Shown here: piece after piece, positions 10,965 to 21,717 of the stretch | Position numbering within the stretch: the first letter of the stretch is position 1 | Layout: every line of letters begins with the position of its first letter | Origin: Acaryochloris sp. CCMEE 5410 | GTDB taxonomy: Bacteria; Cyanobacteriota; Cyanobacteriia; Thermosynechococcales; Thermosynechococcaceae | Length of the DNA: 64,000 bases | Direction of reading: 5' to 3' | Assembly (NCBI RefSeq): GCF_000238775.2 | Contig: NZ_AFEJ02000001.1 | Span: 2,418,001 to 2,482,000 of the forward strand | Position numbers and translations under genes: made by a program | Notes under the pieces: generated by a model | The model's database searches: none | Told to the model about the DNA's origin: nothing | What the model saw: the letters and a program-made list of their open reading frames with translations, nothing else

Positions 10965-12518
10965 TTGGGGGCAAAGGTTTTGACTATTTCTGATCAAGAA
11001 TTAGGCAAAAAAAACGAACAAAGATCAAGCTTAAATCAGCCTAAAATACGAAATTTTGCATATAAAAATAATGACATTATTGATTGGTCTGCATCATTAC
11101 AATCACTCCTAGATCAGCCTCCGGCAGAGATGCCTCTCCGAATTATTTTGAGCGGAGTAGTATTCTTACTTGCTTTTCTCAGCTGGGCTTGGCTAGGAAA
11201 AATAGAAGATATAGGGACGGCAAAAGGAAAGCTAGTCCCAAAAGGTGAGACTTATAAGGTTGAGTCTGTTGCAATCGGGAAGGTCAGCAGAATTGCAGTC
11301 AAAGAAGGAGAAACTGTTACAGCTGGACAAGTCATCGCTGAATTAGATACTTCTTTAGATAAAAAAGAAGTCAAGCGATTAGAACAAATGCTATCTAGCT
11401 ATGAACAAGAGCTAAAGCAAAAACAATCTCTACTCAATAAAGTTTACTTAGAAGCTCAAACTCATCAACAAATTTCTACCTCAGAGAATTTGGGTCAAGA
11501 GTCTGCCATAAAATCAGCTGAAGATAGGGCGGATACTCTACTTCAGTTGCTAATACAACAAAAGCAAGAGATTAATGCTTACAATGCCAGGCATAAACGC
11601 TTAAAACTCTTGTCAAACTTATCAAGATCCCGAGTAAAGCAATTAGAGCTAGATCTCAAATCCAATCAAGGTCGTGTGAAAAAATTAAAGTCGTTGGAAA
11701 AGCAAGGTGCTATCTCTAGCGAATTAGTCTTCCAGGCCAATCAAAATCTTAGTCAAGTTCAGAGTCAGATCACAGAAAGTAAATTACAAGACATTACTAG
11801 TGTCAGCCAGCAAATCTTTCAAAATGAGCAATCGATGCGAACTCTTGCTGCAAAAATGACAGAAGATCAAGGAGAGCTCTATTCTGCTTATCGACAAGTT
11901 GAACAACTAAAAGCAGAGTTAAATCGGAATAAAGCGGAAAGAACTCGACTAAAGCTAGAAGCATACCAAAAAATTGATCAGCTTAAACTAGAAACTACCC
12001 AAGCAAGAACTAAAGTATCTGAAACAAAGAATCAGATGCTCAAAGCCAAAGCAACTCTAGACCAAAAGCTCTTTAAAGCACCTATTGATGGTGTTGTTTT
12101 ATCATTTAATTTAAAGAATGAAGGTAAGGTAGTCAATTCAGGGCAAACTGTAGCTGAAATTGCACCTCACAACACTCCTTTAATAATTGCTGCAGTTTTA
12201 CCCAATCAGGAAGCAGGCTTTATTAAGAAAGATCAACCAGCGAAAGTTAAATTTGATGCCTATTCATATCAAGATTATGGGGTAGTACCAGGTAAGGTAT
12301 CCTCAATTTCATCAGACTCAAAATATGATCCGAAGCTAGGAAATGTTTACCAAGTTGAAGTTGAATTAGAGCGTCATCACATCGTAGACAATAACAAGAG
12401 AATTAAATTTAGGCCTGGCCAATCGGCAACAGCTAATATTGTTATCCGTCAGCGTCGTATTATCGATGTTTTATTAGATCCAATCAAGCAATTGAAGAGT
12501 GGCAACACGAAAAAATAA
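10965..12518 (+). CDS. HlyD-family membrane-fusion (adaptor) protein of a type I exporter
   Basis: This 517-residue periplasmic adaptor has a short cytoplasmic N-terminus and one membrane segment (about 59-77, RIILSGVVFLLAFLSWAWLG). The first lipoyl-like half is GKVSRIAVKEGETVTAGQVI (about 108-130), followed by a long coiled coil (about 135-365). The second lipoyl half is FKAPIDGVVLSFNLKNEGKV, and the C-terminal beta-barrel includes FRPGQSATANIVIRQR. It should bridge an inner-membrane ABC exporter to an outer-membrane channel. No ATG is available near the N-terminus: the frame is closed by a stop at 10953, so the start is TTG 10965 or TTG 10980. It is the first gene of an export cluster with the HetP-like and C39-ABC genes. 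No TolC gene is present in the window. Confidence 0.9.
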   Translation: MGAKVLTISDQELGKKNEQRSSLNQPKIRNFAYKNNDIIDWSASLQSLLDQPPAEMPLRIILSGVVFLLAFLSWAWLGKIEDIGTAKGKLVPKGETYKVESVAIGKVSRIAVKEGETVTAGQVIAELDTSLDKKEVKRLEQMLSSYEQELKQKQSLLNKVYLEAQTHQQISTSENLGQESAIKSAEDRADTLLQLLIQQKQEINAYNARHKRLKLLSNLSRSRVKQLELDLKSNQGRVKKLKSLEKQGAISSELVFQANQNLSQVQSQITESKLQDITSVSQQIFQNEQSMRTLAAKMTEDQGELYSAYRQVEQLKAELNRNKAERTRLKLEAYQKIDQLKLETTQARTKVSETKNQMLKAKATLDQKLFKAPIDGVVLSFNLKNEGKVVNSGQTVAEIAPHNTPLIIAAVLPNQEAGFIKKDQPAKVKFDAYSYQDYGVVPGKVSSISSDSKYDPKLGNVYQVEVELERHHIVDNNKRIKFRPGQSATANIVIRQRRIIDVLLDPIKQLKSGNTKK

Positions 12519-12895: not shown

Positions 12896-13315
12896 ATGAA
12901 TCATCACTTATCTACTCACTCTGGGACTGATTTTGATAAACAAATCACTTACGAACAATTCAATCAAGTGATTGAAGCCATACTAATGGGGAAATATTCT
13001 TGGGCTTGCGTCTTAATGCTGCGTTTTGTGGGATATAACCCACTTCACTATATTCCTTATCGCACTTACAACAGATTAATCAAAAAAGAAAGCCTACTGA
13101 GTTATCAAACATCTAAAGACAAAGCGAGCTGTAAAGAATTTGAGCCCAAGTCACTTATAGCCCAGTCAAACTCACCCAGATACATGCAAGATCTCGAATA
13201 CTTAGAAGATGTTCGAGAAAAATCAACTCAGGTAACAGGTGGAACAAGCAATAACTGGCTAGCCAAAAACTATCTTACTATGTGGAATAAAAAGATCAGT
13301 AATCCAAACCTTTAG
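12896..13315 (+). CDS. hetP: HetP-family protein
   Basis: The 139-residue protein contains the block [20 protein letters not shown] followed by [25 protein letters not shown] (about residues 21-65). This is the characteristic HetP domain of cyanobacteria. In Anabaena, HetP and its paralogues control commitment to heterocyst formation, and hetP sits next to hetC. The second half (residues 70-139) is polar and poorly conserved. The gene lies between the HlyD-family gene and the HetC-type C39 ABC exporter, 34 bases before the latter, so co-transcription is likely. This genome shows no other sign of heterocyst genes in the window, so a role in regulating or assisting export is my inference. HetP proteins have no established enzymatic activity. 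Confidence 0.8.
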
Positions 13316-16541: not shown

Positions 16542-17291
16542 TCATCCTTTCATATTAATAACGTACTCAATTTCTTTATTGATCCATTCATCAAACAAAC
16601 TATGAAGTATTTCTTGCCTCAACTCAGGCGTTAACTCTGCAGGAATATGTTCCTCAATCCTTAAGAGGTGATACACATCTTCTGTTTGAATTGGACCTAG
16701 TAGAATCCCTATAGGTAAGGGATCTTGAAAGATAACTGCAGCGATATCTGGGGGAAAACTTAAACGATTTTTCTGACCTGTATAACCGCACAGATAGCGA
16801 GCGTTCTGATCAAGATTGTGAAGTCGCGCAGCTTCGTAAAAACTAATTTCTTCTTCTTCAATTTGATAAAATAGCTCTTGTACAAAATTTTGGCAGTCAA
16901 GACTAATTTGATAGACCACAAAGCGATCAAAATTTAATCGTCTTTCAGCAAAAAAAGGTTCTACTTGCTCTTCAAATAGATGTTTAGCCAATTTTTTGGT
17001 AAGCACGTGATTCTGAATTGCAATTTCCCATTCATCTGGGGTAATCATTTGCTCATTGAGCCAAGCCATCGTATCAGATGCCTTCTCCAAATGCTTATTA
17101 CGGCGAATCTCATCTACTTCATTTTGAATTTCTTCAGGTGTAACCGTAATATTTTGAGAATCAGCTGTTTGAAGAATAATTTTTTGTTTAAGAATTTGCT
17201 CGCAGACCTCTACTAGACTCATATTTTGCTTGAGTGCTTCTAGCACCTCAGCTATCTCAATTGGAATTCCGCGAAAGTCTATAGTCATCAT
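16542..17291 (-). CDS. SurA/PpiC-like (parvulin-type) peptidyl-prolyl isomerase-like protein
   Basis: The 249-residue protein has a SurA-like helical N-terminal region (ITVTPEEIQNEVDEIRRNKH, then DTMAWLNEQMITPDEWEIAI) and a degenerate parvulin domain around residues 120-230. Its last strand reads LPIGILLGPIQTEDVYHLLR, similar to the VGPV-type strand of parvulins. No signal peptide is visible, so it probably acts in the cytoplasm on cargo before export. Such proteins are known to occur beside HlyD and C39 ABC genes in cyanobacterial bacteriocin-type clusters. It converges on the exporter gene (39 bases apart) and points the same way as the cargo genes at 17956-20771. Isomerase activity is not assured, because few catalytic parvulin residues can be recognised. 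Confidence 0.8.
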   Translation of the reverse strand: MMTIDFRGIPIEIAEVLEALKQNMSLVEVCEQILKQKIILQTADSQNITVTPEEIQNEVDEIRRNKHLEKASDTMAWLNEQMITPDEWEIAIQNHVLTKKLAKHLFEEQVEPFFAERRLNFDRFVVYQISLDCQNFVQELFYQIEEEEISFYEAARLHNLDQNARYLCGYTGQKNRLSFPPDIAAVIFQDPLPIGILLGPIQTEDVYHLLRIEEHIPAELTPELRQEILHSLFDEWINKEIEYVINMKG

Positions 17292-20513: not shown

Positions 20514-20771
20514 CTAGGAAACAGAAGTTGAGCTAGCAGCGGATGAAGAGCCATACCCAGCAACAGTAGTAGTAGTAGTAGTGGCCTCACTAAAAGAACC
20601 TGGACCAATAGCATCTGCAGTTGCACCAGCTTTAGCGATGTTACCTACAGGCTTACCAAAAGTTTTAATGACTACGAATTTTAAGTGAACTTTTTTGCTG
20701 AAACTCCCGCCAGCAATTTTGTCAAGACCTTCAGTAACAGCTTCACAGTAATTCAAATCAGAGATAATCAT
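20514..20771 (-). CDS. Double-glycine-leader peptide (bacteriocin-like precursor)
   Basis: From ATG 20771 the peptide has 85 residues. The leader MIISDLNYCEAVTEGLDKIA ends in Gly21-Gly22 and then Ser, the classical C39 cleavage site. Leaders beginning with a similar MIISDLNY motif are known in cyanobacterial bacteriocin-like precursors. The predicted core of 63 residues starts SFSKKVHLKFVVIKTFGKPV, continues with a Gly/Ala-rich part, then six Thr encoded by a near-perfect trinucleotide repeat, and ends in SSAASSTSVS. An AGAGGA ribosome site lies about 8 bases before ATG 20771; the TTG at 20774 is less likely. The HetC-type C39 exporter encoded at 13350 is the obvious processing and export partner. 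Antimicrobial or signalling activity is unproven. Confidence 0.78.
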   Translation of the reverse strand: MIISDLNYCEAVTEGLDKIAGGSFSKKVHLKFVVIKTFGKPVGNIAKAGATADAIGPGSFSEATTTTTTVAGYGSSSAASSTSVS

Positions 20772-21487
20772 CAATCTATTCCTCTTGTATTTATTGAGCT
20801 AGTCTTTATCAGAAAGCTAGATATATAACCTAGTTTCTTTGATTTTGTCCTAAAACTTTAAATTAAACTTAAAACCTAATTATATTGTCGAAATCTGTGG
20901 CATATATCCAAAATTTCTGAGCAATAAATTAACGGTTTCATGCTTATTGCAAGCTGAAGGAGAAAACCTTGATTAGCTCGTTACTGAAATTACTATAGGA
21001 AGGAAGAATAAAATCATGTTGCCAAATTGGCATAAATATTTTGACACCGTCATACAACATTCAGAATGCCTTGCTGTCTTGTTGTTCATCGCAAAATGTA
21101 ATGGCACATATTTTGTAAAGATTAAAATCAGTCATTGCCAACCATACGTTTAGCTCATCATTAGACTGCGTTGCGATTCATATTTTGGATCAACACAGTT
21201 AACCTCTCAAAACCCTGGAAATGGAGCTCACATGTACGCAGCATTACATGGCGAAGCATATTTGATGGACCCGACCAAGCACTTTAAGCCCCGTAGGCCA
21301 GTTTCTGCTACAAGGTTAGTTCAATAGAATCAGGGAGAACTACACCGTTCATTCACATCAAGCCATTCTCCTCTAGTAGTCGGTTGCCAACTACCATCAG
21401 GCTTATCGTCATGATGGGGAATTTTCATATCGATTGCCAGAAACCTGGATCGATCTAAGGTCTAAATGCTATATTCAAATACGCAAT
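20772..21487. other. Intergenic region between the peptide gene and tRNA-His
   Basis: These 716 bases contain the promoter and ribosome site of the minus-strand peptide gene at the left end. I recognise no gene. A 45-residue frame at 21016-21153 is preceded by a GGAAGGA-like site but has no known relatives and is not called. Confidence 0.45.
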
Positions 21488-21561
21488 GGCGGGCGTAGCC
21501 AAGTGGTTAAGGCAGTGGATTGTGGTTCCACCATTCGTGGGTTCGATTCCCATCGTCCGCC
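21488..21561 (+). tRNA. tRNA-His (anticodon GTG)
   Basis: The full cloverleaf is visible: acceptor arms GCGGGCG and CGTCCGC, an anticodon stem GTGGA/TCCAC with loop TTGTGGT, and a T arm GTGGG-TTCGATT-CCCAT. The extra G at 21488 opposite C73 is the hallmark of tRNA-His. CCA is not encoded. Confidence 0.96.
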
Positions 21562-21717
21562 CTGAACGCCATTATTAGTAAAAGTTGAGCCGTATTCTCT
21601 TCTGTTTGGATAGCGGCTTATATCTGTAATTAGCAAGTAAAGACATAGCCTGCCAGATGCATTAGAGTTCGATTCTATTGGCAGCAGGATAAAATCAGTC
21701 CCATCGGAGCAAAGCAG

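Follow-up and report, generated by a model that had tools for sequence, protein, structure and literature searches.

The 64-kb stretch of DNA analysed here (the window) contains a gene cluster for a peptidase-containing ABC exporter of the C39 type and, a few kilobases away, a short gene for a double-glycine (GG) precursor. The features are collected in Table 1.

Table 1. Features of the exporter cluster and the precursor gene in the window
Feature	Position	Strand	Details
HlyD-family type I secretion adaptor	10965..12518	plus	
HetP-family protein	12896..13315	plus	117 bits with NF037966 (cut-off 45)
C39-ABC exporter, 1050 aa	13350..16502	plus	cNMP-binding-like, C39 peptidase, ABC membrane and ATPase domains
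PpiC/SurA-like peptidyl-prolyl isomerase	16542..17291	minus	precursor genes lie near PpiC in sister loci
RTX-like repeat protein, 444 aa	17956..19290	minus	homologue in Xenococcus PCC 7305 sister locus
Ser-rich ORF, 85 aa	19871..20128	minus	long Ser run
Double-glycine precursor, 85 aa	20514..20771	minus	ATG at 20771, TAG ending at 20514
Six ACT codons (Thr64-69)	20565..20582	minus	perfect trinucleotide repeat, within predicted beta strand 60-70
Precursor leader, residues 1-22	20706..20771	minus	
Precursor core, residues 23-85		minus	63 residues
Ribosome binding site AGAGGA	20780..20785	minus	8 bases ahead of precursor ATG

The precursor ORF is a genuine gene encoding a small protein. Its start is preceded by AAGAGGA-ATAGATTG-ATG, its leader reads MIISDLNYCE-x10-GG with the pair at Gly21-Gly22, and its core opens with SFSKKVHLKFVVIKTFGK. 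An earlier note, which read the ORF from the sequence, had described the GG leader, the ribosome site at 8-base spacing and the 63-residue core just as we find them, and the core start that it called basic and hydrophobic is so in the sequence. Scans for promoters and terminators gave chance-level results, with no terminator adjoining the precursor gene. The gene lies 3.2 kb from the PpiC gene with two other ORFs intervening, and on the strand opposite to the exporter, an arrangement that speaks against taking joint expression of precursor and exporter for granted. On the far side of the ribosome site, positions 20980-21480 hold possible gene debris with broken frames (e.g. NPGNGAHMYAALHGEAYLMDPTKHFKPRRPVSATRLVQ).

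Leader profile. Loci for comparison were gathered through the exporter, six from the same exporter clade and 80 from named genomes. The resulting 86 loci yielded 100 distinct precursors, each starting with the leader motif. A leader HMM built from these relatives, leaving the window sequence out, ranked the precursor first of 1111 window frames (29.4 bits, E 2.7e-8); the best score across 30 shuffled windows was 12.8 bits. When the alignment included the window sequence, the precursor came first in the whole 8.1-Mb genome (E 6.2e-8) and the neighbouring HetP second (E 0.58). The leader is not of the NHLP or Nif11 (N11P) type by the NCBIfam models, which gave no match at E up to 1, and Pfam returned only a spurious 9-bit match. 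Searching 58 relatives directly with the protein returned the window copy and chance matches only; homologues came to light once loci had been gathered by way of the exporter. A plasmid search found nothing relevant. The gene has the makeup of a C39-exported precursor, being a short ORF with GG about 20 residues from its start and a C39 exporter with intact catalytic residues nearby.

Those residues, Cys351, His424 and Asp440, do not vary between the exporter and the six relatives aligned with it. Of the seven cluster proteins scanned (10.9-20.8 kb), none was recognised as an immunity protein or a modification enzyme. The Ser-rich 85-aa ORF was considered as a second precursor and rejected, since it lacks a GG leader and has no homology to the precursors; it has no close homologue in the genome.

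The cluster is conserved. Sister loci have the recurring gene order exporter, HlyD, HetP, precursors, PpiC, with an alternative order in the window and in Xenococcus PCC 7305 (L050), where HlyD, HetP and exporter are followed by PpiC and precursors on the other strand. HetP was found in 72 of the 86 loci, at least one such precursor in 40 of the 48 loci having PpiC in reach, and 85 of the 100 precursors lie on PpiC's strand; several diverged precursor copies are common. The RTX-like protein has homologues in three sister loci (L050, L062 and L081), the first matching it at 39% over 476 residues, and it could be another exported protein that moves together with the cluster. The leader family, the core family described below, the C39 exporter close by and the recurrence of this layout in dozens of genomes all speak for the double-glycine exported precursor that the earlier note had proposed. 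Very probably the small protein is trimmed and then exported by this transporter, which is dedicated to it and whose gene is a few kilobases distant.

Core family. The core aligns over its whole length with precursors of Moorena, Oscillatoria, Planktothrix, Hydrococcus, Pleurocapsa and others, sharing the pattern GN-x-A-x-A-x-A-x-A-x-G, then a Thr-rich segment and then a Ser-rich alternating tail. The best phmmer match within the set of collected cores had E 3.2e-6, and BLAST gave 39.5% identity over 43 residues (E 5e-4). Judged from these alignments, the core is homologous to the sister-locus precursor cores in its Ala ladder, Thr-rich strand and Ser tail; the conserved part is this Ala/Thr/Ser ladder, not the basic segment. 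We also looked for the core within a larger non-secreted protein, which the earlier note had named as grounds for refuting its reading, and all homologues found were small proteins that carried a GG leader of their own. No Pfam or NCBIfam model fits the 32 aligned core members, and none was found for the peptide or its relatives. In the AlphaFold2 model of the precursor, strands are predicted at residues 60-70 and 74-84 (pLDDT 82-90 for this block); pLDDT is 66 overall and below 50 for residues 10-40. A Foldseek search of the PDB with this model matched no solved fold.

Threonine run. The earlier note had attributed the threonines of the tail to near-perfect trinucleotide repeats. The Thr run does consist of six perfect ACT codons, and no other perfect run of a three-base unit was reported in the window. 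The Ser tracts have mixed codons (TCT TCA TCC ...), so that trinucleotide repetition is confined to the Thr run. ACT accounts for 106 of the 335 Thr codons in 13 nearby genes, where the longest Thr run is 3. Among the 100 related precursors the longest is also 3, so the run of six is private to the window precursor, and we rejected it as a conserved functional tract since it is absent from the homologues. In another cyanobacterium (L104, 8435-9274), three tandem paralogous precursors have 7, 7 and 6 TAC codons in a row; the length of codon runs therefore changes between copies in this precursor family. It is plausible that length variation of the Thr repeat could create tail variants at the window locus.

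Origin of the cluster. In the exporter tree, the window exporter groups with Xenococcus (SH-aLRT 96) deep among Pleurocapsales rows, and it is 79% identical to one relative (L051) over the C39-ABC part; most exporters of the window's own family fall in separate group I branches. The core-family alignment has matches in 51 of 291 sampled cyanobacterial genomes of the class, and within the window's own family the window's genome alone has a match in this sample. The tree and the distribution of the core family over sampled genomes have their simplest reading in horizontal acquisition, and the cluster was probably acquired from a Pleurocapsales-like source. A tRNA-His gene at 21489-21562 lies directly past this probably acquired cluster and is a possible integration boundary.

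Leader specificity. The genome has two C39 exporters. The second locus (L139, contig C2:1628000-1647999) has a short-type C39 exporter with HlyD and three precursors starting MSELFT(D/E)LSDQQQELVAGG, which we take to be CTB-type. These share a GG leader and a C39 exporter with the window system. They differ in leader class (SELFTELSDQQQELVAGG) and in core, and their exporter has no N-terminal domain. Two exporters and two leader classes in one genome fit dedicated recognition, with one leader class per exporter.

HetP motif. The window HetP contains DLEYLE-x10-GG near its C-terminus (about 13190-13243, in the part of the gene at 13184-13315), closely resembling the precursor leader; Wang et al. 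reported KIxDLxYLEx10GG in HetP proteins in 2011 (PMC3140520). Among 70 full HetP proteins from the collected loci, 57 have the strict pattern and 63 the broad pattern, and 48 score at least 7 bits with the leader HMM, against none of 1400 shuffled sequences. Most HetP proteins have x10 before the GG, most precursors x8 or x9; in the window precursor it is x10. In 12 genomes the motif is kept in 15 of 20 HetP copies linked to a C39 exporter (judged within stretches of about 8 kb either side) and in 1 of 12 unlinked copies (Fisher p 6e-4, relatedness not corrected). For two of the linked copies that lack the motif (L199 and L200), the distance to a C39 exporter is about 5 kb.

The window exporter is not HetC itself. 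That assignment was rejected, as the exporter groups with Xenococcus exporters outside the clade of 10 rows (support 100) that holds the HetC of heterocyst formers. This HetC clade and the window-type exporters all fall within one larger clade of 85 rows. We suggest, as a speculative reading that is less likely than not, that HetC-type exporters may read one motif, DLxYLE-x8-10-GG, present both as the precursor leader and as the internal HetP site; the linked exporter would in that case have either whole HetP or the part following its GG as a substrate or binding partner. The motif counts and the tree together put HetP forward as a plausible candidate for a HetC substrate or partner. Rachedi et al. 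2024 state that no GG-leader gene has come to light near hetC and that the HetC substrate is unknown (PMC10986499); were the suggestion true, HetP would be the missing HetC substrate in heterocyst formers. Separately, an uncultured Scytonema has a GG precursor (MNISDLNYVED...VVGG; L125, 17523-17762, minus strand) within about 5 kb of a HetC-clade exporter, which bears on the statement that no GG precursor occurs near hetC in Nostoc PCC 7120.

The window brings exporter, candidate substrate and HetP together in a non-heterocystous setting. Since the three share one motif, the leader preference of the exporter is open to in vitro assay away from the complexities of heterocyst development, and should HetP prove to be cut or bound by the exporter, a long-standing gap in the account of heterocyst differentiation could be addressed directly by experiment. 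The precursor itself is very probably an exported small protein of an ordinary kind in a HetC-like setting, and its core belongs to an uncatalogued family of small exported cyanobacterial proteins tied to the exporter clade that also contains HetC.

We consider it likely that the precursor is a dedicated substrate of the adjacent HetC-type exporter, cut after GG to give an EbfG-like small protein, rich in beta structure, of the cell surface or matrix. We infer a route in which the C39 domain would bind the leader DLNYCE-x10-GG and cut after Gly22, and the 63-residue core would exit by way of the exporter, HlyD and a channel in the outer membrane. Once outside the cell, the C-terminal half of the core would form a Thr/Ser-rich beta hairpin. 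The run of six threonines within a strand is presumably a recent local codon expansion, and the length of this run may vary. The core would act there as a small surface or matrix protein, in a role comparable to that of EbfG in Synechococcus elongatus; this role is suggested by the beta-rich low-complexity core and the EbfG precedent.

That the exported core is instead a microcin-like antimicrobial bacteriocin, killing competing cyanobacteria, seems improbable. Leader type and cluster were first catalogued as those of bacteriocin clusters (PMC3140520), and a basic-hydrophobic segment does open the core; however, conservation of the core follows the Ala/Thr/Ser ladder rather than that segment, the seven cluster proteins scanned include no recognised immunity gene or modification enzyme, and the tested cyanobacterial proteins of this general kind (EbfG) act in biofilms. 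A part in communication between cells, as a released signal peptide of the sort proposed for the HetC substrate, would suit an exporter that stands in the same large clade as HetC and beside HetP, and a leader that matches the internal HetP motif down to the x10 spacing. We nevertheless think such a role quite unlikely for 63 low-complexity Ala/Thr/Ser residues, which, often present as several diverged copies in sister loci, look structural; no receptor candidate was found, and the genome has no nifH match above the family cut-off and hence no nitrogen-fixing cells that such a signal could control. The debris-like DNA alongside (about 20.98-21.48 kb) and the unconserved Thr run might hint at a chance ORF, or one in decay, whose start happens to resemble a leader; this is highly improbable given a leader score far above shuffled windows, whole-length alignment to homologues, and an intact frame with its ribosome site. 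The preferred reading is thus an EbfG-like exported protein, and apart from the CTB-type precursors above it can be set beside three known systems.

The first is the group I/II clusters of Wang, Fewer and Sivonen 2011 (PMC3140520). Common to these and the window are a long-type C39 exporter with an N-terminal nucleotide-binding-like domain, HlyD, a SurA/rotamase protein, a HetP-like neighbour and a short Gly/Ser/Thr-rich GG precursor. The window combines the exporter, HlyD and SurA/rotamase of such clusters with the HetP typical of group II; extra modification genes such as the M16 peptidase of group II were not seen among the seven proteins scanned at 10.9-20.8 kb, an apparent difference. The window differs too in a core subfamily for which there is no Pfam or NCBIfam model, and in its run of six threonines, unique among the collected precursors. 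Wang et al. put one group I exporter, from Acaryochloris marina, in clade II (PMC3140520).

The second is EbfG1-4 and PteB of S. elongatus. EbfG1-4 are GG-leader proteins whose efficient secretion needs the C39 exporter PteB (PMC4997328), and EbfG1-3 form amyloid (PMC9981879). Small GG-leader proteins, a C39 exporter and a plausible beta-rich matrix or surface role are common to both systems, and EbfG/PteB provides the experimental precedent in cyanobacteria for GG proteins of the size of the window precursor. Mature EbfG reportedly has no homology to other cyanobacterial proteins, whereas the window core has many homologues.

The third is HetC and HetP of heterocyst formers (PMC10986499, PMC4133259), with which the window shares the HetC domain order, the same large exporter clade and an adjacent HetP. 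Unlike the hosts of that system, the window genome has no nifH match above the family cut-off; its exporter, moreover, falls in a Pleurocapsales group, with HlyD adjacent and a GG precursor present.
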